Of a DNA stretch of 31,466 nt, positions 2,877 through 31,466 are shown piece after piece (position 1 is the first letter of the stretch; each line of letters begins with the position of its first letter). The notes beneath the pieces were generated by a model that was not told the origin of the DNA, made no database searches, and was given only the letters and a program-made list of their open reading frames with translations. The stretch comes from a virus. The translations under genes were made by a program, and so were the position numbers. The stretch lies in the IMG/VR virus record IMGVR_UViG_3300046519_000298, positions 1-31,466 of that record; one strand, written 5' to 3'.

Positions 2877-3101
2877 CTACATTTCAGACAACTTCGTGAT
2901 TGCCCGCGAAGCCTTCCAAGCGTCGATTGCGGTACTCGACCACGCCACCATGCGGTGGCCGGTGCGAAGCGGGCGCGGGAACTCCCCTTCGTCCATGAGG
3001 CGGTAAATCGTAGAGCGGCTCATGCCGGTTTCACGCTCGACTTCAGGTCGGCGAAGCAGTCGGCCGATTGCTGCCTCGGTACAAAGCGCGGCGTCAGACA
3101 T
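2877..3101 (-). CDS. AlpA-family phage regulator / excisionase-like
   Basis: A 74-aa MerR-like winged-helix protein of the AlpA/Cox type. Seen: 'LLRRPEVERETGMSRSTIY' helix-turn-helix followed by 'MDEGEFPRP...GHRMVAW', the standard AlpA core. Family members activate integrase genes or act as excisionase/transcription switches. ATG 3101 has GGGAGG five to six bases upstream. The frame is open upstream to 3356 through an Ash-like motif, but the SD and domain boundary favour 3101. Its start overlaps the stop of the upstream ORF by 8 nt. No integrase lies downstream: only 120 bp separate it from the host gene. Confidence 0.85.
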   Translation of the reverse strand: MSDAALCTEAAIGRLLRRPEVERETGMSRSTIYRLMDEGEFPRPLRTGHRMVAWSSTAIDAWKASRAITKLSEM

Positions 3102-3618
3102 GCGCGCCTCCCGGAGCGCACGCGGCGCTAAAGTACGAGGTGCAAGGCAGTGACGAGAAAAGAATAGAGGCGCGGTCAACGGGCAACTTCCGACAGAGGA
3201 AGCCCTTCGACCAGCTGCAATTCTGGAGGTCGGGCAACACCGAGTTTGCAGACCGGTGAAAGTTGCCGAAACCGGCAGGCCCGAAAGCCTCACGGTGCGC
3301 CCGACCATAGAAAAACGCGCTCCGCAAAACGGGGCGCGCCGGACGGCAACAATCATAGCGGCTGCAAATCCGCATCGCTACCTTTTTTGTAACGACAACA
3401 GGCACGTTGCGTTGCTGTCGTGGGGTTGTCAAGGTCATGAGCCTTAAGGCCTTTTTCGGCTTGTGAATGGGGGTTGGTTTGTGGCGACGGGGGTTCACAA
3501 CGCGGCCTCTAGCGCCGTCCGACATGGCGGCGGCGGTGCAGCTGCATGGGTCGATGCGCAGCCAGGCGTAATCGGTGAAGCCGGTGTCGTTGCAGGCGCG
3601 GCAGCGGGGAGCGTTCAT
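3094..3618 (-). CDS. Hypothetical protein with N-terminal Cys cluster, running through an Ash-like leader
   Basis: ATG 3618 overlaps the methyltransferase stop (ATGA), so initiation here is well supported. The predicted product is up to 174 aa. The first ~25 residues contain 'CRACNDTGF' and 'CSC', a zinc-knuckle-like pattern. The frame then stays open through 'FFYGRAHREAFGPAGF' and ends by overlapping the alpA start. The distal half covers a hairpin/T-run terminator and an alternative-frame Ash-like motif, so only the N-terminal part may be a true protein. Function unknown. Confidence 0.5.
   Translation of the reverse strand: MNAPRCRACNDTGFTDYAWLRIDPCSCTAAAMSDGARGRVVNPRRHKPTPIHKPKKALRLMTLTTPRQQRNVPVVVTKKVAMRICSRYDCCRPARPVLRSAFFYGRAHREAFGPAGFGNFHRSANSVLPDLQNCSWSKGFLCRKLPVDRASILFSSLPCTSYFSAACAPGGAHV
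3311..3338 (-). terminator. Intrinsic terminator in the leader of alpA
   Basis: Read on the minus strand: CGCGCCCCG (3338-3330), TTTTG loop, CGGAGCGCG (3324-3316; one C-A mismatch), then TTTTT (3315-3311). It lies about 210 bp upstream of alpA, in the direction of transcription, so it could stop read-through from the early operon into alpA. The sequence just after it encodes MVGRT... in one frame, the hallmark of Ash-family leader sequences of P4-like elements. Confidence 0.6.
3404..3432 (-). promoter_or_regulatory. Possible promoter upstream of the alpA leader
   Basis: A perfect TTGACA -35 hexamer lies at 3432-3427 on the minus strand, about 90 bp upstream of the leader terminator. No good -10 hexamer sits at 16-18 bp spacing (best CAACGT), so the call is weak. 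The surrounding region also carries an ACGACA/TGTCGT inverted repeat. Confidence 0.25.
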
Positions 3619-4289
3619 GCTGGGTAATCCCCCTCGCGTTCGAGGCGCAGGCGGCATTTCTCGATGCGGCGCAGGCGGGTGTCCTCTTCGCCCTTGATCC
3701 AGACGATCCAGCAGTAGGAAGTGGCGCTGGACGCCTTTCGGGGCTCGCCGGTCTTCGGGTCGATGTTCGCCGCGTCGATCGCGCCCGAGCGCACCAAGCG
3801 CCCCTTGAGCATGACGACACGTTCAGCGAAGACGAGCACGTAGGCGGGGCGCATCGTGGTCGAGAGCCATTCCCGGCTCTCGCTCTCAAGGAATGCGGTG
3901 CGCATCAGCATGGCAACGCCGACTCGGCTCCGCGCGAGGGCGCGGGCGATGAACTGCTCGGCAAGCTTGAACGGCGGGTTGGTGATGGTCCAATCCGTCA
4001 TGATCAGCCATTCGGCGGGCCCGAAGAGGTAGTCCTCTACGCGGAAGCCCTTGCCATAGTCGAAGATATCCGAGGCTAGCACGTGCCCGAAGGCCTCCCG
4101 GAGGGCCTTGACCATGTAGCCCCGGTTTGCGGCCGGCTCGCGGACGTCCGACATGGCAAGGTCGTAACGACGACGGGATAACCACTCTGTCAGAGCCCTC
4201 ACTGCCCATGGAGGGGTCGGAAAGTCGTCCAGGCTGTCGTGGGGCTCGGCGCGCTGCTGCATCACAGCGCTGCTGGTGTTCTGGCTCAT
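3615..4289 (-). CDS. SAM-dependent DNA methyltransferase, N6-adenine type
   Basis: A 224-aa class I methyltransferase. Seen: 'DFPTPPWA' (22-29), a motif-I-like SAM site 'EPAANRG' (51-57), 'ASDIFDYG' (72-79) for the next strand, and catalytic 'NPPF' (104-107), the motif IV of N6-adenine/N4-cytosine amino-methyltransferases. Motif I precedes motif IV (gamma-like order). No target-recognition domain is obvious, as in small phage enzymes. ATG 4289 overlaps the upstream stop (ATGA), fixing the start, and its own stop overlaps the next ATG. Likely role: modification of phage DNA against host restriction. No cognate endonuclease is nearby. Confidence 0.75.
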   Translation of the reverse strand: MSQNTSSAVMQQRAEPHDSLDDFPTPPWAVRALTEWLSRRRYDLAMSDVREPAANRGYMVKALREAFGHVLASDIFDYGKGFRVEDYLFGPAEWLIMTDWTITNPPFKLAEQFIARALARSRVGVAMLMRTAFLESESREWLSTTMRPAYVLVFAERVVMLKGRLVRSGAIDAANIDPKTGEPRKASSATSYCWIVWIKGEEDTRLRRIEKCRLRLEREGDYPA

Positions 4290-4546
4290 CCGCGTTGCGC
4301 CCCGTCGCGCGCAGCCTTCCACGCCTTGTATTCCACGGCGTGTGTCGCGCAGAGGTCCTTGCCCGGCGCGGGCGACGTGGAGCACGAGCGGCAGATCGGG
4401 GCATCACACGTTCCGCTGCGCTTTCCAGCTATCTTCCAATCGCAAAGCAGTGGTGCGGCTCGGCCGCAGTGGCATCGCTGCCCACGGCGGGATGAGCACA
4501 CGATAGCGAAACCGCCACCCGGCATAGGGACATGTTTACACGTCAT
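4286..4546 (-). CDS. Small Cys-rich protein, putative zinc-binding
   Basis: An 86-aa protein with about eight Cys, including 'CHCG', 'LLCDW' and 'CDAPICRSCS', an arrangement like a double zinc-finger or HNH-type metal site, but no HNH catalytic residues are clear. The start overlaps the preceding 20-codon ORF (ATGA) and its stop overlaps the methyltransferase start (ATGA), so it is a genuine member of the early operon. The location next to DNA-modifying genes suggests a nucleic-acid-binding role; this is inference only. Confidence 0.65.
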   Translation of the reverse strand: MTCKHVPMPGGGFAIVCSSRRGQRCHCGRAAPLLCDWKIAGKRSGTCDAPICRSCSTSPAPGKDLCATHAVEYKAWKAARDGAQRG

Positions 4547-6551: not shown

Positions 6552-7049
6552 TCAGTCGATGCCGAGGCTGCACTTGTAGGTGTCGAGCAGCATGTCCATT
6601 TCGCGGCGATCGTCGGGCTTCATCTTCCGAATGCGGACGATTGCGCGCATGATCTTCACGTCATATCCGACCGCCTTGGCTTCGCCGTAGACATCGCGGA
6701 TATCGTCGCTGATGCCCTTCTTCTCTTCCTCGAGGCGCTCGACGCGCTCGATCAGGAGGCGCAGGCGATCGTCGGCGGCGCGGTTCTCTTTCGGCAGGTC
6801 GACCGGGATGGTCATCTGCCGCTCGACCGGCGCTGCCGGGGTGAGCGCCTGGCCGTCTTCGCCAAGCAAGGCGCGGCGGCCGACATGGTCGGGCGCGGAG
6901 ACGATACCGTCTGCCTCCATGCGCTCGATCAGCTTGGCGGCGACGTTGTAGCCCACGCGAAGCTGGCGCTGCAGCCACGAGGTGGAGGCCCTGTCGTGCT
7001 GGCGCACGAGTTGGACGGCGGTGCCATAATGATCAGTGTCGGTCGTCAT
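6552..7049 (-). CDS. Fusion of FtsK gamma domain and GapR/DUF2312 domain
   Basis: A 165-aa two-domain DNA-binding protein. Residues ~6-65 match the winged-helix gamma domain of FtsK ('RASTSWLQRQLRVGYNVAAK', 'ADGIVSAPDHVGRRALL'), which reads KOPS sequences and contacts XerD. Residues ~95-165 match GapR/DUF2312 ('IERVERLEEEKKGISDDI', 'DVYGEAKAVGYDVK', 'VRIRK'), an alphaproteobacterial protein that clamps overtwisted DNA ahead of replication and transcription. ATG 7049 overlaps the upstream stop (TGATG). No ATPase motor is present. It may bind host KOPS/dif regions or protect replicating phage DNA; the role is unproven. Confidence 0.8.
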   Translation of the reverse strand: MTTDTDHYGTAVQLVRQHDRASTSWLQRQLRVGYNVAAKLIERMEADGIVSAPDHVGRRALLGEDGQALTPAAPVERQMTIPVDLPKENRAADDRLRLLIERVERLEEEKKGISDDIRDVYGEAKAVGYDVKIMRAIVRIRKMKPDDRREMDMLLDTYKCSLGID

Positions 7050-7225
7050 CAGCCGATCCTCATGAGTTCGTCGATCTTCGCGCGCGCGAGATCGGCTCCG
7101 CGCTGCCAGAAGAGGCCGCGCTTCGTTGTCGGGGCGTAGGGGTTGCGGGCCGGCGGGGCGGCGCGGAGGCGCTCTGCAATTACGGCGTCGCGGCCCTCGC
7201 GGATGTGCTGGGCGATGGGTGTCAT
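7049..7225 (-). CDS. Hypothetical small basic protein (58 aa)
   Basis: ATG 7225 overlaps the upstream stop (ATGA) and TGA 7051-7049 overlaps the FtsK-gamma/GapR start. The protein begins MTPIAQHIREGRDAV and is Arg/Ala-rich with a 'RGLFWQRGADLARAKID' segment. No domain recognised. The double overlap is the main evidence that it is real. Confidence 0.55.
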   Translation of the reverse strand: MTPIAQHIREGRDAVIAERLRAAPPARNPYAPTTKRGLFWQRGADLARAKIDELMRIG

Positions 7226-7362
7226 GCCGGCAGCATCGCCCAGGCAAGCGCGAAGGCGTATGCGATGGAGGGGGCCGTGCAGCAGAGCCGCAGCATGTCG
7301 CGCCGCACGTCGATCGGGGCGCTTCGCCAGAGATCGCGCCAGGCGGTAAGTGAGGCGGTCAC
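7222..7362 (-). CDS. Small protein, 46 aa
   Basis: A GTG start at 7362 overlaps the preceding TGA (GTGA) and the stop overlaps the next ATG (ATGA). The product (VTASLTAWRDLWRS...) has a moderately hydrophobic C-terminal half (SIAYAFALAWAMLPA), perhaps membrane-associated. Function unknown. Confidence 0.5.
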   Translation of the reverse strand: MTASLTAWRDLWRSAPIDVRRDMLRLCCTAPSIAYAFALAWAMLPA

Positions 7363-7781: not shown

Positions 7782-8150
7782 TCAGGCGGCTTCCGCCGAG
7801 GGCGGGCCGATCTCGAACATGTCTGGTTGGGTGGTGTCGCGCGGGCGCGTAGCCTCAAGAAAAGCCTGCCGCTCCATGGGGCGCAGCGGGAGGTCCACCT
7901 TGGGGTTCGGGATGCCGCTTGGGACGATCCCGTATTCGTAGGCGAGCGAGGCGCGCCAACTGTGGCTACAGAACAGGTTGACGCACTGGTAGTACATGTC
8001 CCGGTGCTGGCCGGTGACCTGCTTGCTGGAGCGGATACGCCCCCGGAAGCCGCAGTGCGGACAATAAAGAGGGGCGAACCGGCCCGCGTCGTCTTCGGCG
8101 ACGACGGTCGGAACGTCCTCTGCGGCGGTATGCTTGTGTCCCCCCGACAT
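7782..8150 (-). CDS. ogr: Ogr/Delta-family late transcription activator
   Basis: A 122-aa zinc-finger activator of phage late promoters. Residues 30-61 hold C-x2-C-x22-C-x4-C (C30, C33, C56, C61), the exact Ogr/Delta spacing, with 'CPHCGFRGRIRSS' and 'YYQCVNLFCSHSW' as in P2 Ogr. The protein is longer than P2 Ogr (72 aa), with N- and C-terminal extensions. Ogr binds TGT...ACA dyads upstream of late promoters and recruits RNA polymerase; matching dyads are present at 17038-17061 and 30387-30410. Unlike P2, where ogr follows gene D, this copy is the third gene of the early operon, so late activation would depend directly on early transcription. Confidence 0.85.
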   Translation of the reverse strand: MSGGHKHTAAEDVPTVVAEDDAGRFAPLYCPHCGFRGRIRSSKQVTGQHRDMYYQCVNLFCSHSWRASLAYEYGIVPSGIPNPKVDLPLRPMERQAFLEATRPRDTTQPDMFEIGPPSAEAA

Positions 8151-8153
8151 CGG

Positions 8154-8609
8154 TTATTCCCCCGGCACGAGCGATTTTAGGTTGTGGAGCAGTGCGGCCC
8201 ACGCCTGCAGGGCCTCTTCGCCCTCGCGGATCGCGGCCTGACGAGCAGCGGAATCGCCGCTGGTTGCAGCTTGCATCACCGCGTTCATGGCTTCGCCGCT
8301 TTCCTTCGCGGCGATGCCCGAGGCCATCATCAGGCAGGCAGCGTCAGCACCGGACGCGGTGGTGTCGATGCCGAGGCGCGCGGCGTGGCAGTCGAGGAAG
8401 GGCGAGCAATTTCCACCAGCCTGCCGGTATGCAGCATCGAGGCGGATCGCATCGCGATACTTGAGTTCGCGGCCGGTGTCGGGATCACCCAGCTTGCGGG
8501 TCTGCGAAACCGAAAGCTCTACAATCTCCGCGCACGTTTCCCACCCAAGGAGGTCGGAAACGGTTTCGAGGGCGCGGTACTGGGTCAGAGGCTGGCGCGG
8601 CTTGGTCAT
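8154..8609 (-). CDS. Putative phage regulatory protein (CII-like)
   Basis: A 151-aa protein, second gene of the early operon. The N-terminal half ('VSDLLGWETCAEIVELSVSQ', then 'LGDPDTGRELKYRDAIRLDA') resembles DNA-binding regulatory proteins of the CII/Cox position in P2-like phages; the C-terminal half is a long Ala/Glu-rich helix suited to oligomerisation. ATG 8609 overlaps the upstream stop (ATGA). Assignment rests mostly on position and a possible helix-turn-helix. Confidence 0.5.
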   Translation of the reverse strand: MTKPRQPLTQYRALETVSDLLGWETCAEIVELSVSQTRKLGDPDTGRELKYRDAIRLDAAYRQAGGNCSPFLDCHAARLGIDTTASGADAACLMMASGIAAKESGEAMNAVMQAATSGDSAARQAAIREGEEALQAWAALLHNLKSLVPGE

Positions 8610-9047: not shown

Positions 9048-9587
9048 ATGAACATTTCCGTCTCCGAGCGTCTCAAGGAACTGCGCGTTTCTGCCGTTCC
9101 TCGCCTCTCAATCCGCAAGATGGCGGAGGAGCTGGGCATAACCTTCCCGCGATATGTTTATTTTGAGGACCCCAAGCGCTTCAAAAAGCGCGAGCTTCCG
9201 CTAGATTTAACGCGGCAGATTGCTGATGTTCTTTCCCGCTACGGCGTCGATACGCTCGAAGTGATGAAGCTCGCTGGTCTGAGCGATGCCGAGGCTGAGC
9301 CAGAGGTGCGCGACATCGAAGCGGCACAGCCGAAACGGCACTGGATCAGCCTACCGGTTTGCCTCCCTAGTGAAGCAGCCCTCGCCGCAATGTTTGAAAC
9401 GCTTCTAGCTTTGATCCCGGAAGACGCGACTCGGGCTGAAGCCGCGCGCATTCTCGCTCAGCGGCTTCCAACTGGGTTCGCAGCGATCGGACCTGACGTT
9501 TATGAAGAGGGGTCGGACGAAGAGCATGTTCCCGTCGCGCCGCTTCGAGCGCGCGCCACAAGTCGTCGCGATTCGCCACGGCCGTAG
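9048..9587 (+). CDS. CI-like phage repressor with N-terminal HTH
   Basis: A 179-aa protein. Residues ~3-70 form a Cro/C1-type HTH ('SERLKELRVSAVPRLSIRKM' then 'EELGITFPRYVYFED'). The C-terminal half ('MFETLLALIPEDATRAEAAR') is helical and may dimerise; there is no LexA/CI Ser-Lys autoprotease, so RecA-driven self-cleavage is not expected. ATG 9048 is used because the HTH begins right after it, although the frame is open to 8853. Divergent from the early operon; its job is presumably maintenance of lysogeny. Confidence 0.7.
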   Translation: MNISVSERLKELRVSAVPRLSIRKMAEELGITFPRYVYFEDPKRFKKRELPLDLTRQIADVLSRYGVDTLEVMKLAGLSDAEAEPEVRDIEAAQPKRHWISLPVCLPSEAALAAMFETLLALIPEDATRAEAARILAQRLPTGFAAIGPDVYEEGSDEEHVPVAPLRARATSRRDSPRP

Positions 9588-11743: not shown

Positions 11744-13755
11744 CAGAAATCGTCCCCAAAACCGCGCCGCTTCTTGGCGTCGTTGGCCTTGGCAACCAGA
11801 TCGGCCACCCGCTGCGCGAAGGCTTCCGAATCTTCGCCTGGCTGCTGCGTGATGTGGAAGTGGTACTCGTCCCCACTGCCACCGGCCGCCGGGGCACGGG
11901 CCGATGCTGCTGGCGCGAGCGCCATCGCGCCCGCCCCGGCGACTGAGGCGGCCATCCTTCCCACCGCGCGCACTGGTCCGTCCTGTCCCTTACGGATGCC
12001 GATGCCCAAGCCATCGTTGATGTGTCCACCCATTTCCATGAACAGACGCGAAGGCGAATGAATGCCCAGCATGCTCGCGAACTTGGCACCTACGCTTCCC
12101 GCCAAGTTCACGATCGCTTGCAGCACCTTACCGGACATTGAAACGATGCCGTTGACCAAGCCGCCGACGATGTTCGCTCCAAAGCCGAAGAAGCGCCCGA
12201 CCAGACCGGATAGATAGGACTGGATCGCGACAAAAGGTCGAATGAAAGGCCCCACGATCCCGGCCACGCGCGAGACCATCGACATAGTAGCCGCGCTGAT
12301 CCTGTCCCAATTGCGGTAGATCAAGGAGGCGACATAGATCACGCCTGCGACCAGAGGCATGAATATGACAATGCCCCCGAGAAGTACGTTACGGATCGTC
12401 GTCCAGTTGCGCGTGAAGGCGCCGGTGACCGTAGCCCACAAGCCGGTGAAGAAGCCGGAAATCGCCCCCCAGTTGGAATAGATCAAGTAGGCCGCGCCAG
12501 CCACGGCAGCGACAGCGGCGATTACGGGCAGTGCGGCAAGCGCCAGGGCACCGAACCCAGTCGCCGCGCCGCCGGCAGCAACACCGGCTGCGCCCACTCC
12601 GGCCGCGCCAACACTGGCCGCCGCGCCCGTTCCGATAAACAGTGGTGCGAGGGTTCCGACGATCGAAACAATCGAGGCCACCCCCAACAGCATCGGGCCG
12701 ATCGCGGCCGCGCCGACGCCGAGCAGTACGATCCATTTGCGCGTGGACGGCGAAAGTGCGGTGAACATGCGGATCAGGTCACCGAAAGATCGTATAGCAG
12801 GCGTGACCGCGGGCAGGAGTTCAGTTCCGATAGCAACGGACATGTCCTGCCACGCGGCATTGGAAGCGCGCAGCTGATTGGCCATCGAATTGCTCGTGCG
12901 CAGGACGTCACCCTGGGCGTTGGTGGTCGACGCCATGATGAGGCCCGCACGCGCCATGATCTTCTGCTGTTCGGTAAATTCCTTCCCGACCGGCTTCATT
13001 CCCATCTTCAACGCCTGCGCCTTTACGGCGGCGTCCGAGAGGAAGATGCCGAAATCGCGGAGCGGTTCAGCTTCGCCGGTGAGGCCCGAGCGCAGTTTTT
13101 CCAGCGCCTCACCCGGTTCGACGTTGTAGAAGCTGGAGAGGTCCTGCGCGAGCACGGCGAATTGCTTGCTCATGGCCGCAGATTTCGCCGGGTCGGCAGC
13201 ATTGAAAAACACGCCGAAGGTGTTGGCCGCCTGCTCGATCTCCATTTTGGAGCGCCCCATGGCGGCGCCGGTCTGTTCGGCCCAGAGGGTCATCACCGCC
13301 GCATTCTTGCCAAAGGTGACATCGAATGCGCTCTGCAGTTCGTAAGCATCGGAGGCGGCCTCGACCGCCTCCTTGCCGAAGGCAATCAGCGGTGCGGTGA
13401 GCGTGGCCGATGCCGCCGCGCCACCGATGGCGGCGGCGTGCGCGATCTTGCTGGCCTTCGCCTGCACGGCGTTGACCCTTTCCAGTCGATTGCGCTGCTG
13501 CTCGATACGGTGGTTGGTTTCTTCGATAGCGGCGGCCAGTTCGCGTTCGGCCATCACCAGGCCGCCTTGCAGCGATCCTGACGCCAGAAGTTCACGGACG
13601 CGGACCAACTCTTTCTCGTTGGCTTTCACCTCCTTCTGCATTTCACGCAGGGAAGCGGCCCCCGCCTTACTGGCGCCCACGATGTTGCGGATCGAGCCGG
13701 AGACCTTGTCGATCCCGGTGAACTTGAACAGCAGGTTGAGCTTATTGTCGGCCAT
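11743..13755 (-). CDS. T: Tail tape measure protein (gpT)
   Basis: A 670-aa tape-measure protein that sets tail length. An N-terminal coiled coil (~20-100, 'EMQKEVKANEKELVRVRELL') precedes a TP901-type core ('QSAFDVTFGKNAAVMTLWAE', 'SFYNVEPGEALEKLRSG'), several hydrophobic/Ala-Gly segments (~330-430 and 470-560), and a C-terminal 'GIHSPSRLFMEMGGHI' motif common in tape measures. It is shorter than P2 gpT (815 aa), suggesting a shorter tail. A 'HFHITQQPGED' segment closes the protein. Confidence 0.9.
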   Translation of the reverse strand: MADNKLNLLFKFTGIDKVSGSIRNIVGASKAGAASLREMQKEVKANEKELVRVRELLASGSLQGGLVMAERELAAAIEETNHRIEQQRNRLERVNAVQAKASKIAHAAAIGGAAASATLTAPLIAFGKEAVEAASDAYELQSAFDVTFGKNAAVMTLWAEQTGAAMGRSKMEIEQAANTFGVFFNAADPAKSAAMSKQFAVLAQDLSSFYNVEPGEALEKLRSGLTGEAEPLRDFGIFLSDAAVKAQALKMGMKPVGKEFTEQQKIMARAGLIMASTTNAQGDVLRTSNSMANQLRASNAAWQDMSVAIGTELLPAVTPAIRSFGDLIRMFTALSPSTRKWIVLLGVGAAAIGPMLLGVASIVSIVGTLAPLFIGTGAAASVGAAGVGAAGVAAGGAATGFGALALAALPVIAAVAAVAGAAYLIYSNWGAISGFFTGLWATVTGAFTRNWTTIRNVLLGGIVIFMPLVAGVIYVASLIYRNWDRISAATMSMVSRVAGIVGPFIRPFVAIQSYLSGLVGRFFGFGANIVGGLVNGIVSMSGKVLQAIVNLAGSVGAKFASMLGIHSPSRLFMEMGGHINDGLGIGIRKGQDGPVRAVGRMAASVAGAGAMALAPAASARAPAAGGSGDEYHFHITQQPGEDSEAFAQRVADLVAKANDAKKRRGFGDDF

Positions 13756-16417: not shown

Positions 16418-16464
16418 GGAAGCCACCGCCCGAGGTCCGGGGGCAGGGAGGTGAGGGCGATCAT
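16414..16464 (-). CDS. Mini-ORF, 16 codons, between V and W
   Basis: ATG 16464 overlaps the gpV stop (ATGA) and its TGA overlaps the gpW start (ATGA), so it bridges the gap exactly. The peptide is MIALTSLPPDLGRWLP. It may act purely as a ribosome relay coupling W to V translation. Confidence 0.4.
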   Translation of the reverse strand: MIALTSLPPDLGRWLP

Positions 16465-16994
16465 ACCGGCGCGCCGGACTGCGCAGCACCGGCCTGCACG
16501 CCGCTGTGCTTGTGGCTTTTCAGGCTGATGCTGCCGGCGAGCACATCATCGCTCGCGGTCAGCTTGCCCGTCACCGTCACGTCGCCGACGATGTCGACGG
16601 TGTCGGAAGCGAGCACGGTGGACCCGCCTGAGGGTAGCTGGATCAACAGTTCGGACGCGGCGGGGTCGTAGGAGATAACCGCACCGTCCGAAAAGCGGAT
16701 CAGGGCGACCGCTTCGTCTATCGGCGCGGGGTTCTGGTCCGAGACTACGCCGCCCGCGACGATGCCCGCGCCGATCTCGCCGCCGGGGCAGAACAGGACA
16801 ACCTGTTCGCCGATGCTGGGTGGGAGCCAGACGCGGGTTTCGCCCATGCGGGGGGCGAGCCACGGCAGGGCGGGGGACTCCACGTCATCATCGAGCAGCA
16901 CGGTGCAGCGCGCGGCTCCAAGGTCGACAGAGGCGACGGTGGCGTAACGCAGCAGTGCATCGGGATCGGTGGGGGCGTCTTCGGGCGTTCTCAT
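16461..16994 (-). CDS. V: Baseplate assembly/spike protein V
   Basis: A 177-aa gpV central spike. The N-terminal OB-like domain ('VASVDLGAARCTVLLDDD', 'LPWLAPRMGETRVWLPPSIG', 'EQVVLFCPGGEI') precedes a repetitive beta-helix and the tip 'SLKSHKHSGVQAG' with an HxH iron-binding-type pattern seen in P2-type spikes. ATG 16994 has TAGGGG just upstream. First gene of the leftward late operon. Confidence 0.9.
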   Translation of the reverse strand: MRTPEDAPTDPDALLRYATVASVDLGAARCTVLLDDDVESPALPWLAPRMGETRVWLPPSIGEQVVLFCPGGEIGAGIVAGGVVSDQNPAPIDEAVALIRFSDGAVISYDPAASELLIQLPSGGSTVLASDTVDIVGDVTVTGKLTASDDVLAGSISLKSHKHSGVQAGAAQSGAPV

Positions 16995-17037
16995 GCCCCT
17001 ACAATGGCGGCGGGAAAAAACCGCGCCACAGTGCGGG

Positions 17038-17061
17038 GTTGTGAGCCCCGTCGGCTACAAC
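17038..17061. promoter_or_regulatory. Candidate Ogr binding dyad between V and J
   Basis: GTTGT-(14 bp)-ACAAC, with near-perfect inner extension (GTTGTgAGCC/GGCTACAAC). It sits midway between the divergent genes V and J: 43 bp before V and 44 bp before J. An identical arrangement occurs at 30387-30410. P2 Ogr sites are TGT-N12-ACA; here the spacer is 14. Confidence 0.65.
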
Positions 17062-17105
17062 GCGCACGGGTAGCAGAGAGGCCCCAGCCTGCCGATAGCT
17101 GGGAC

Positions 17106-17999
17106 ATGGTTGGTTCGATCGCCTCATCCCCCGCCGTCGATCTTTCGACGCTCCCCGCGCCGGTACTTGTGCCGCAGCCCAGCTACGCGGCGCGCAAAGC
17201 CGCGAAACTGGCAAAACTGATGGAACTGCATGCCGAATTTACCGCGCTGGTCGAAAGCGATCCGGCGGTGAAAGTGATCGAGGCGGACGCCTATGACGAA
17301 GTGACGCTGGCGCGGGCGTTCAACGATGCCGCAGTCGGCATGCTGCTGGCTTTCGCCGAGGGGACGAACCTCGACCAGATCGGGGCGCTCCTCGACGTAC
17401 CCCGCCTTGTTGTAGCCGCCGCGACCGAGACGACAGAAGCGGTCATGGAAGGCGATGTCGCCTACAAGCAGCGCATTCAGCTTGCGCCGCACGCTTTCTC
17501 CGTTGCCGGGCCGGAACTGGCCTACGTGTTCCATGCTCGCTCGGCACACGGCGATGTCGAGGATGCCACCGCCGTATCGCCGTCGCCCGGCGAAGTAGTG
17601 GTGACGGTGCTTTCGTCCAGCGGCACCGGAGTACCCACGGCCGAGGTACTGGCAGCGGTCAACACGACCTTACAGGGGCCCGTGCGGCCGCTAACCGACC
17701 ATGTCACCGTACAGGCAGCCGGGTTGGTGGACTTCACTGTCGAAGCGCGCCTCTACGTGTTCGCCGGCCCCGACCAAGGCCTGATCCTTGCCACCGCGCA
17801 GGCTGCGCTTGCCGCGCATCTTGCCGATGTGCGCAAGCTGGGTCGAGACGTCGCCCGCTCGGCCATCGTCGCCGCGCTCCACGTCGGCAACGTCCAACGT
17901 GTGGAGCTGCTGCAGCCGGCGGCCGACGTGACGATCGACTGGAGCCAGGTCGGCAACGCCACGGCCACGTCGGTCACGATCGCGGGGACCGAGCTGTGA
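17106..17999 (+). CDS. J: Baseplate assembly protein J
   Basis: A 297-aa P2 gpJ baseplate wedge protein. 'TEAVMEGDVAYKQRIQLAPH' followed by 'SVAGPELAYVFHARSAH' is the gpJ/gp47 core, and 'GEVVVTVLSSSGTGVPTAEV' continues it. ATG 17106 is preferred over upstream frame starts because family members start near here and because the Ogr dyad lies 44 bp upstream. Its stop overlaps the gpI start (GTGA). Heads the rightward late operon. Confidence 0.9.
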   Translation: MVGSIASSPAVDLSTLPAPVLVPQPSYAARKAAKLAKLMELHAEFTALVESDPAVKVIEADAYDEVTLARAFNDAAVGMLLAFAEGTNLDQIGALLDVPRLVVAAATETTEAVMEGDVAYKQRIQLAPHAFSVAGPELAYVFHARSAHGDVEDATAVSPSPGEVVVTVLSSSGTGVPTAEVLAAVNTTLQGPVRPLTDHVTVQAAGLVDFTVEARLYVFAGPDQGLILATAQAALAAHLADVRKLGRDVARSAIVAALHVGNVQRVELLQPAADVTIDWSQVGNATATSVTIAGTEL

Positions 18000-24499: not shown

Positions 24500-24526
24500 G
24501 TGGGCAATTTTGTGAATGGATCAAAT

Positions 24527-25537
24527 ATGTCGTCTCAAGCGCAAAGAAACGACTTAATTGATGTTTTTCGAGCTTGTTCCATACTGGCGGTTTTAGTGTT
24601 TCACTATACCGTAGAAGGGCTTAATTTTTCGCGAGATAGCTTGTGGATGAAGGGTGGTCTTGGGGTTCAGGTATTTTTTTGTATATCTGGTCTTGTTATT
24701 ACGATGACGGCTCTTCGTTCTAACGGGCCCTCTGACTTTGCGGCACGACGGTTCTTTAGAATTTACCCGACATTCTTTTTGGCCTGCACCGTCACTTACC
24801 TCGTATTAGCGCTCCATGATCCGACCGGCTACAATCTCAAAGTCCTCGATTATTTAGGATCCTTGACGTTTGCACCAGACCGTCTCGGGCTTAAATACGT
24901 AGACGGTGCCTACTGGTCGTTATTCGTGGAGGCGCTCTTTTATGGCGTGGTAGCTCTTTCCCTCGCCGCTTTTCGGGCTCGGTTTTGGGTGGGCGTGCTT
25001 GGGTTGCTGGTTTTCGGCGCGATTGCTCGTCCTCTTTTCAGCAAGGCAATCGGGGTGCTATTGTTTGCACCGTACTCAGGCTTTTTTCTGATGGGCATGG
25101 CGGGATGGTACGCCATCTACGAGCGCGACAAATTAGCGAGTATATCGCTCTCCATCGGCGCGATAATCTGTCTTTCCCTCGATCCACTGATGGGATTCCA
25201 TTGGCCCGCGATACCGGCAGCATTGTTTATGTTGGGTTTGCTGGCGCTGGGAGTAAACACTTCTGTCGGACCTATGGCGTGGATTGGCCGCTGTTCGTAC
25301 CCTCTGTATCTTATTCATCAAAGCCTTGGTCTTAGTCTTTTGGCGGACTTACTGGCTTGGGGGTGGCATCCACTGGTCGCACTGGCATCTACGATCGCGA
25401 TTGCAATAATCATTGCGGCGGCAGTTCATCGCTACGTAGAGGAGCCTCTCAACAAGCATCTTATGAAGTGGTGGCGGAGCCAAAGAGCGCCCGCGCATGC
25501 CATCGAGCCCAAAGCGGCTGAGCTTCTGTCCGATTAG
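24527..25537 (+). CDS. Acyltransferase-3 family membrane protein (lysogenic conversion candidate)
   Basis: A 336-aa inner-membrane O-acyltransferase with about ten TM helices. Seen: N-terminal 'DVFRACSILAVLVFHYTVEG' (catalytic-type H in FHY), 'GVQVFFCISGLVITM' (helix 2) and 'ARRFFRIYPTFFLA' (R-x10-R-like loop), the OafA/WecH family core. The gene is visibly AT-richer than its neighbours and uses rarer codons, so it was acquired from another source. ATG 24527 is favoured over GTG 24500. It sits in the P2 lysis/S-gene gap next to an IS scar. Likely role: acetylation of host surface polysaccharide, changing receptors. Confidence 0.8.
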   Translation: MSSQAQRNDLIDVFRACSILAVLVFHYTVEGLNFSRDSLWMKGGLGVQVFFCISGLVITMTALRSNGPSDFAARRFFRIYPTFFLACTVTYLVLALHDPTGYNLKVLDYLGSLTFAPDRLGLKYVDGAYWSLFVEALFYGVVALSLAAFRARFWVGVLGLLVFGAIARPLFSKAIGVLLFAPYSGFFLMGMAGWYAIYERDKLASISLSIGAIICLSLDPLMGFHWPAIPAALFMLGLLALGVNTSVGPMAWIGRCSYPLYLIHQSLGLSLLADLLAWGWHPLVALASTIAIAIIIAAAVHRYVEEPLNKHLMKWWRSQRAPAHAIEPKAAELLSD

Positions 25538-29405: not shown

Positions 29406-30284
29406 TCAGCAGTCGGTGCGGACCGTGGCTGCCCCGCCGGTGGCGAGCTGGCGCTGGGTGAAGTTGCCGGCGGGCGTGGCGTCGACCTTGGTGGTCAGCG
29501 CGGCGAGGTCGGCGGTCAGCTTTGCAAGCCCGGCGGTGCTGTCGGTCGCGATCTTGTCGATCGTGGTCGACATCTGCGCGAACATCATGCCGAAGGCAGC
29601 CATGGCATCGCCCTGCGGCGCGATAGCAGGGGTGGCGAGGGCTTGACCCTCGGTCAGCGACGGGGCCTGCTGCTGCGCCTGCTCAGGCGCCTTCGTGAAA
29701 CGATCGAAGAAAGCCTTGGCCGATGCTAGGATACCCGTTGGATCGGGTTCCGCAGCGGCCTGCTCGGCAGTGAAGACCTCCTGCGGAATTTCATGTGCCT
29801 GGCAGAGCAGGTTGTCGGCGGCGAGCTTGCGGTTCGAATAGAAGCCGGGCGTCTTGGCGGCGAATTCCAGCGCCTCGGTGCCGAAGGATGCGGGGCTGTC
29901 GGTGGCGGCCATGCCCACGAGGAACGCCTTACCAGTGCCCCGGCAGTTCTGCCCGACCTCGATCGACGAGAAGACCTTCTGCTTCTTCTTGTTGATGTCC
30001 ACGAAGGCCGGCAGCGGCGTGATCGCGGCAAACAGGGCCATGACCTTCTGGGTCACGTTGCCAACCGGCAGGTCGATCTCTTCCGCCTTTACCGCGGTGA
30101 CGTCGCCCAGCATGTCGAAGGGACCGCCCGGAACGATGCTGCGATAGTGCTCGAGGTTGATGCGCACCCCGTACAGCTGCGGGTTGAAGGTCTCGGCGCA
30201 GTCGAGGATGTCCTGCCGCGTGATCTTGCGGCCGTCGGTGGTGTCGCCTTCAACGGCCACGCGGAAAAAGCGGGGGTCTGCCAT
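29406..30284 (-). CDS. O: Capsid scaffolding protein / protease O
   Basis: A 292-aa gpO (P2 284 aa). The N-terminal Ser protease has its likely triad at D17 ('DTTDGR'), H46 ('INLEHYRS') and S107 ('VFSSIEVG'), equivalent to P2 D19/H48/S107. The C-terminal half is a Gln/Ala-rich helical scaffold ('APEQAQQQAPSLTEG', 'TIDKIATDSTAGLAK'). ATG 30284 has GGAG seven bases upstream and matches P2; the frame is open to 30335. First gene of the leftward head operon. Confidence 0.92.
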   Translation of the reverse strand: MADPRFFRVAVEGDTTDGRKITRQDILDCAETFNPQLYGVRINLEHYRSIVPGGPFDMLGDVTAVKAEEIDLPVGNVTQKVMALFAAITPLPAFVDINKKKQKVFSSIEVGQNCRGTGKAFLVGMAATDSPASFGTEALEFAAKTPGFYSNRKLAADNLLCQAHEIPQEVFTAEQAAAEPDPTGILASAKAFFDRFTKAPEQAQQQAPSLTEGQALATPAIAPQGDAMAAFGMMFAQMSTTIDKIATDSTAGLAKLTADLAALTTKVDATPAGNFTQRQLATGGAATVRTDC

Positions 30285-30386: not shown

Positions 30387-30410
30387 GTTGTGACCCCCGC
30401 ACTCCACAAC
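30387..30410. promoter_or_regulatory. Candidate Ogr binding dyad between O and P
   Basis: GTTGT-(14 bp)-ACAAC; the first part GTTGTGACCCCCG is nearly identical to the V/J site GTTGTGAGCCCCG. The site ends 44 bp before the terminase ATG 30455, the same as the V/J site to the J ATG, and about 100 bp before O. Confidence 0.65.
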
Positions 30411-30454
30411 CCCACCCGTTAGAGCGAGGCGGATTTCGCCCTTAGCGTGGGCCC

Positions 30455-31466
30455 ATGGCGAGCAAGGCAGCAGCACCGATTGAGGCGGAGGACGAAACCG
30501 GGGGCGAAACGCCCGCGCCCGGCGTTGTGCCCGCGATCGTCGCCAAACGAACCATGGCGCGCTCGCTGTTCTGGCGTGGCTGGACAATCCAGCAGGTGGC
30601 CGAGGAGATCGGCGTCCCCTACCACACCGTGTACTCGTGGAAGCAGCGCCACAAGTGGGACGACGCGCCAGCCATCCAGCGCGCCGAGGAAGGCACGCTC
30701 GAGCGCTACCTGACCTTGATGGCCAAGGAGAATAAGACCGGGCACGACTTCAAGGAAATCGACCTTCTCGGCCGCCAGTTCGAGCGCCTGGCGCGCGTGG
30801 CGCGGTACGCGGACGGCGGCAACGAGGCGGACCTCAACCCGGCCCGCTCCAACGGTGCCAAGGCGACCAACGCGAAGAAGGAGAAGACGAAGAACCTCAT
30901 CACCCGCGACATGCTGGCGAAGCTTCGCGCGGATCTCGAGGACGGACTTTTCGGCCACCAGCAGGCATGGCTCGCGACCACGTCCCAGCGCACGCGCATG
31001 ATCCTCAAATCGCGCCAGATCGGCGCGACGTGGTACTTCGCCCGCGAACGCCTGCTCGTTGCGCTGGAGACCGGCAAGAGCCAGATTTTCATATCGGCAT
31101 CGCGCGCGCAGGCGAACATCTTCCGCAACTACATCATCCAGTGGGTGCAAAAGGTCTGCGGCATCGCGCTTGCCGGCGATCCGATGGTGATCCAGCGCGG
31201 CGAGGACGAGGACGGCGAAGTCCTCGAGGCGGTGACGCTCTACTTCCTCGGCACGAACTACAGGACGGCGCAGGGGTACACCGGCGACGTCATCATCGAC
31301 GAATGCTTCTGGATTTACGGTTTCGAGGAACTGTTCAAGGTCGCGTCCGCGATCGCAACCCACGAGCATTTCACCCGCACGCTGTTCTCGACGCCCAGCA
31401 CGCTGGCGCACGAGGCCTATCCCATGTGGACCGGCGAGCGCGTCAACAAGCGCCGGGCCAAAGCTG
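30455..31466 (+). CDS. P: Terminase large (ATPase) subunit P, 5' part
   Basis: The frame is open to the window end: 337 residues of about 590 are seen. An N-terminal HTH ('TIQQVAEEIGVPYHTVYSWK', ~44-63) binds cos; a Walker-A-like 'KSRQIGATWYFA' (~185-196) and Walker B 'VIIDECFW' (~279-286; D282/E283) power packaging. Matches P2 gpP. ATG 30455 is the natural start; no strong SD precedes it. Divergent from O; the portal gene Q should follow beyond the edge. Confidence 0.92.
   Translation, partial: MASKAAAPIEAEDETGGETPAPGVVPAIVAKRTMARSLFWRGWTIQQVAEEIGVPYHTVYSWKQRHKWDDAPAIQRAEEGTLERYLTLMAKENKTGHDFKEIDLLGRQFERLARVARYADGGNEADLNPARSNGAKATNAKKEKTKNLITRDMLAKLRADLEDGLFGHQQAWLATTSQRTRMILKSRQIGATWYFARERLLVALETGKSQIFISASRAQANIFRNYIIQWVQKVCGIALAGDPMVIQRGEDEDGEVLEAVTLYFLGTNYRTAQGYTGDVIIDECFWIYGFEELFKVASAIATHEHFTRTLFSTPSTLAHEAYPMWTGERVNKRRAKA

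Follow-up and report, generated by a model that had tools for sequence, protein, structure and literature searches.

Candidate Ogr sites with a 14-base spacing between the divergent late operons of a P2-like prophage

The late promoters of phage P2, which respond to Ogr or to P4 Delta, share with the locus described here an Ogr/Delta zinc-finger protein, a TGT/ACA dyad, a common O/P site and, as predictions in our case, a dyad centre at about −55 and a V start point that coincides with the start codon; the N12 spacing of Ogr sites (TGT-N12-ACA) is established (PMC3931495). The P2 record shows one activator site common to pO (start point 3127) and pP (start point 3016), about 55 bp to either side, and has V transcription beginning on the start codon itself, as a leaderless message. 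P2 sites are degenerate: those of O/P and F end in CCA, and that of V reads TGT-N11-ACA. An N13 motif, TGTTGT-N13-ACAACA, has been published for the Ralstonia phages phiRSA1 and phiRSY1 (PMC5694545). These phages resemble our locus in their longer arms, their four late promoter regions and a dyad 50–90 bp from the start codons, and differ from it in having N13 instead of N14 (PMC5694545). Smp131 of Stenotrophomonas also has a predicted common P/O site, J and V operons and a similar gene order, whereas its reported sites are TGT-N12-ACA and its J and V sites are separate (PMC3931495). The Ogr switch, the shared O/P site and the N12 and N13 spacings are all known, and late promoters of P2-like phages, Smp131 among them, have been predicted with the TGT-N12-ACA rule.

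We analyzed a 31,466-base linear IMG/VR virus record, referred to as the window, that carries a P2-like prophage. Because its nearest relatives are prophages in Novosphingobium silvae and Sphingomonas sp. IC081, the host is probably a sphingomonad. The left 2.7 kb (hydrolase, MFS transporter) resembles host DNA. Scaffold O, capsid N and the connector genes run leftward, as do V, sheath, tape measure, D and then ogr; J, I and the fibre genes run rightward from 17.1 kb, and terminase P lies at the right end. The genes central to this analysis are as follows.

7782 to 8150, minus strand: zinc-finger activator of the Ogr/Delta family (122 aa), in the same orientation as the V operon (PF04606, E=7e-12; PHROG 603, transcriptional regulator; alignments)
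16461 to 16994, minus strand: gene V (baseplate assembly/spike), opening the leftward tail operon (PHROG 9992, E=2.5e-19)
17106 to 17999, plus strand: gene J (baseplate), opening the rightward tail operon (PHROG 4226/6)
29406 to 30284, minus strand: gene O (capsid scaffold/protease), opening the leftward head operon, start inferred (PHROG 73, E=3.5e-70)
30455 to 31465, plus strand: gene P (terminase large subunit), running past the window end (PHROG 3746, E=7e-91)

For J, the mechanical open reading frame begins at 17004; the conserved start is 17106, the ATG at which the relatives' alignments begin. An ARAGORN tRNA-Ser call at 12535–12617 falls inside the tape-measure gene and was taken as a false positive. 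The window also encodes a single protein in which a GapR DNA-binding domain is joined to an FtsK gamma domain of the KOPS-binding type (6552–7247, minus strand), an O-acetyltransferase (24500–25537) whose gene sits between the fibre operon and the head operon, and, close to the left end, a DNA methyltransferase (3615–4385).

A sequence-only reading of the window had proposed that the V/J and O/P intergenic regions share a GTTGT-N14-ACAAC dyad. Both dyads were recovered exactly, with spacing 14 and a match at all ten arm positions, and the V/J and O/P pairs were confirmed as divergent late genes.

17038 to 17061, no strand: V/J dyad GTTGTGAGCCCCGTCGGCTACAAC (N14), candidate bidirectional Ogr site; exact match, kept at V/J in loci L178, L180 and L186
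30387 to 30410, no strand: O/P dyad GTTGTGACCCCCGCACTCCACAAC (N14), candidate bidirectional Ogr site; exact match, kept in loci L005, L006/L085, L086 and L090

When GTTGT-Nk-ACAAC was sought across the window with k from 0 to 60, these two were the only exact matches. Dinucleotide-preserving shuffles (300) gave a mean of ~0.01 exact matches per spacing; none contained two matches at k=14, and in 0.3% a pair of matches shared some spacing between 8 and 20. The two copies had been called almost identical, which is correct for the arms (exact) and a little strong for the spacers, where 8 of 14 bases are in common. Compared with P2, the arms of the window dyads are stronger and more regular, the spacing is N14 instead of N12, and a single V/J site is shared where P2 has separate V and F sites. 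Because the spacing is 14 at all three window sites (the third is described below), departing from the strict N12 consensus of P2, these sites represent a variant and not a P2-consensus promoter.

The proposed activator was likewise confirmed as a member of the Ogr/Delta family. The 122-aa protein scores 45.5 bits against PF04606 (cut-off 26.3) and has the cysteine signature C-x2-C-x22-C-x4-C. Its best match in the PDB is a weak one to the Rpb9 chain of RNA polymerase II (E=0.004), so it is without a close solved relative. We consider it very likely that the phage's own Ogr binds the dyads, doing so as a dimer ~55 bp upstream of the starts in both directions and activating V/J and O/P. The dyads themselves, their conservation and constant geometry, the phage-wide spacing and the ogr gene are observed; binding, dimerisation, activation and the start points are what we infer in this scheme. 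A dimer of the zinc-finger protein would sit on the half-sites GTTGT/ACAAC, with its centre ~55 bp ahead of either start, and activate RNA polymerase. Because the site is symmetrical, one copy could serve both directions, so that 17038–17061 would drive V and J, 30387–30410 would drive O and P, and two bidirectional sites would switch on four late operons. Additionally, ogr lies downstream of the V operon in the same orientation and could reinforce its own expression.

The position of the dyads is consistent with this scheme. Taking start codons, and not mapped start points, as the reference, the dyad centres are 55.5–57.5 bp from V, J and P. The distance to the V ATG is 55.5 bp in the window, that to the J ATG is 56–57.5 bp, and in the window's clade all four phages have the P ATG at 56.5 bp. 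Outward from the dyad toward each of these three genes, a −10-like hexamer occurs ~32–38 bp from the dyad end, with the ATG 6–7 nt further on.

17001 to 17006, minus strand: inferred V promoter −10, CATTGT, 6 nt before the ATG (CATTGT/CATGGT-N6-ATG in four phages)
17094 to 17099, plus strand: inferred J promoter −10, GATAGC, 6 nt before the ATG (general form GATAGC-N6/7-ATG)
30443 to 30448, plus strand: inferred P promoter −10, TAGCGT, 6 nt before the ATG (TAGCGT-N6-ATG in the window, N. silvae, IC081 and the IMG/VR phage G022)

On the O side lies a leader, together with a conserved block that reads TTGCGA-N17-TCCTCT in the window. From the placing of hexamer and ATG, the V, J and P messages are predicted to start at or beside the start codon, probably within a base or two of it. 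This geometry fits Ogr acting near −55 of divergent, leaderless promoters, and to that extent it supports the earlier proposal of two bidirectional Ogr-type sites; the proposal overlooked that the shared O/P site is already known from P2, and it missed the third site.

The same observations bear on whether the dyads work at the RNA level, as hairpins or as terminators of transcription separating the operons, which we regard as extremely improbable. As RNA, the V/J 24-mer does fold (−9.1 kcal/mol, z = −3.1), but folding of the other two copies is weak (O/P, −4.3 kcal/mol; third, −4.5 kcal/mol), no T-run is present 3′ of the dyads, and the sites lie between divergent starts and not at operon ends. 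This reading was rejected on those grounds. What is conserved about the dyads is their distance to the start codons.

Conservation in the homologous intergenic regions, on which the Ogr-site proposal had been made to depend, was found, and the proposal is supported. The N14 dyad is kept at both O/P and V/J in N. silvae, Sphingomonas sp. IC081 and G022, and in Brevundimonas three identical N14 24-mers lie ahead of O/P, J and V. N13 takes its place in many other P2-like phages of sphingomonads, betaproteobacteria and gammaproteobacteria. Over 64 distinct O/P regions, TGT-N13-ACA was the commonest class (29 occurrences), followed by TGT-N14-ACA (9), while every other spacing occurred at most six times, mostly overlapping N13 or N14. 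Twenty-seven of the 29 N13 dyads and eight of the nine N14 dyads lie 55–60.5 bp from an in-frame P ATG; distance was measured to the ATG nearest 57.5 bp, which somewhat favours such a cluster, and the excess at k=13 and 14 is independent of that choice. N14 is a real and recurrent minority spacing class. It had been put forward as a new variant of an N12 rule; the recurrence bears this out, but N12 is not the sole known spacing, since N13 has been published (PMC5694545). With N13 commonest and N14 recurrent, a scan for N12 only would miss most dyads of the present sample.

The association between Ogr and the motif is not universal, because ~9 of 29 Sphingomonadales O/P regions with a P match have no convincing TGT-Nk-ACA dyad, and 186, PSP3 and Xanthomonas prophages, all of which carry an Ogr gene, show no O/P dyad under the pattern used. 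KS14 had been considered as an Ogr-less negative control and was dropped because it encodes a PF04606 protein of its own.

The spacing behaves as a property of the whole phage. With exact 10-base arms, no phage has both N13 and N14. For an out-of-sample reading, we took larger pieces of eleven further Sphingomonadales prophages, picked by O/P spacing alone, and used a looser core of eight bases (TTGT/ACAA). Nine of the eleven had more than one site of the 13/14 class, and the O/P spacing predicted all 21 of their other sites: 6 of 6 were N14 in the three N14 phages, and 15 of 15 were N13 in the six N13 phages. Of the other two, G347 had one site on a short contig and G355 had none with TTGT/ACAA arms. 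Over 19 phages, the looser core was unmixed in 16. The exceptions (Brevundimonas, N. meiothermophilum and G025) each had one or two matches at the other of the two spacings, N13 or N14, which is near background (0–5 for other spacings over the 19 phages). Independent drift of single sites would not yield this pattern. Uniformity within a phage implies one trans-acting reader with a fixed distance between half-sites, most simply Ogr, the obvious candidate because it is the known activator for the TGT/ACA dyad.

The spacing has also changed repeatedly, since well-supported branches of a terminase tree force no fewer than five changes in the N14 label. Terminase P was used because Ogr is too short for a firm tree, and the histories of terminase and ogr may differ. 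In the Ogr alignments, we found no residue or indel that splits N13 from N14. The zinc finger has no insertion or deletion between the compared sphingomonad N13/N14 pairs; sphingomonad N14 proteins have x4, as do their N13 sisters, and Brevundimonas (N14) has x8. Because N13 and N14 switch among close relatives without a finger indel, what sets half-site spacing in a small activator is directly testable.

Similar to the V/J and O/P copies, the third dyad in the window has spacing 14, and it lies upstream of a C4 RNA.

3478 to 3501, minus strand: third dyad, N14 with one arm mismatch, TTTGTGGCGACGGGGGTTCACAAC, minus-strand reading GTTGTGAACCCCCGTCGCCACAAA; conserved in N. silvae and IC081
3222 to 3312, minus strand: C4 antisense RNA, lying downstream of that dyad (Rfam RF01695; 60.7 bits, gathering score 45)
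2877 to 3101, minus strand: regulator of the AlpA/excisionase type, encoded downstream of the C4 RNA, with a putative start taken from the conserved GGGAGGCGCGCATG (PHROG 2790/66; alignment)

On the 3′ side of this dyad, a conserved block that includes the palindrome GCCTTAAGGC and also CTTGACAAC precedes the C4 RNA and then the AlpA-type gene, and this order is the same in N. silvae and IC081. RF01695 scores 60.6 and 58.1 bits in the relatives' loci L178 and L180. The leader carries UUUGCAG, complementary to CUGCAAA of the C4 RNA, in the window and N. silvae, although cognate duplexes are not always the most stable; in IC081 these are UUAGCAG and CUGCUAA, a compensatory change between leader and C4 loop. 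The Rfam C4-target model gave no match. Among the loci scanned, the C4/AlpA module is present only in the window, N. silvae and IC081.

The third dyad is probably an Ogr site as well. It keeps N14 in all three phages, is exact in IC081 (L180:3207) and is followed by the conserved block. However, its outer arm has a mismatch in the window and N. silvae, and no −10 hexamer like those of V, J and P was found there. There is consequently an appreciable chance, below even, that the Ogr sites are V/J and O/P only, the third copy being a remnant or a site for some other factor; this would be compatible with Ogr control of the late operons. The location of the third dyad also favours a different phage protein, such as the AlpA-type regulator or a repressor, using the dyads as operators to coordinate the same genes. 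We find this highly improbable, as the placing near −55 at late operons, the TGT/ACA arms and the bidirectional use at O/P are the known Ogr design, and a repressor site would usually overlap −35/−10. Moreover, the dyads occur in many Ogr-encoding phages of several bacterial classes, whereas among the loci scanned the module was confined to three phages.

The P4 PLL promoter in the immunity region is activated by Ogr and Delta. At 9133, P4 has TGT-N12-ACA, a candidate Ogr site that lies upstream of both an excisionase-type gene and an RNA (8420–8507) belonging to the same Rfam C4 family as that of the window. The window differs in being a helper-type P2-like phage, in its order (dyad, C4 RNA, AlpA gene) and in N14. 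Positions 2877–3501 resemble a P4-like immunity module inside a P2-like phage. A possible lead from the comparison with P4 is that the third site provides the immunity region with late transcription. More tentatively, half-site spacing (12, 13 or 14) could be an identity code, each Ogr reading only its own spacing and so insulating related phages in one cell and Ogr-borrowing satellites, with the Ogr of the window's clade also driving the C4 immunity operon from the third site; we think this full proposal doubtful, though conceivable.

As far as the literature searched shows, the new elements are the recurrent N14 class, the constancy of spacing inside each phage, the single site common to V and J in this clade and the presence, in a P2-like phage, of an Ogr-type site before a C4 operon. 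Neither N14 spacing nor a C4 RNA in a P2-like phage was found in the open-access literature searched, where broad and noisy searches are weak evidence of absence.

Several minor observations were made in the relatives. KS14 (NC_015273) encodes an Ogr/Delta protein at 3635–3772 (70.6 bits) that is absent from a 2010 comparison table (PMC3091744). In two Brevundimonas-type phages (L184, L185, L190, L191), the three 24-mers are identical in arms and spacer, and the Ogr finger is C-x2-C-x22-C-x8-C. N. meiothermophilum has an extra N13 dyad (L182:17600–17622) ahead of a lysis-peptidase-like open reading frame, possibly a further late operon. Lastly, Sphingomonas sp. IC081 contains another P2-like prophage (G001:C1, about 1468104–1485910), which encodes an Ogr of its own.
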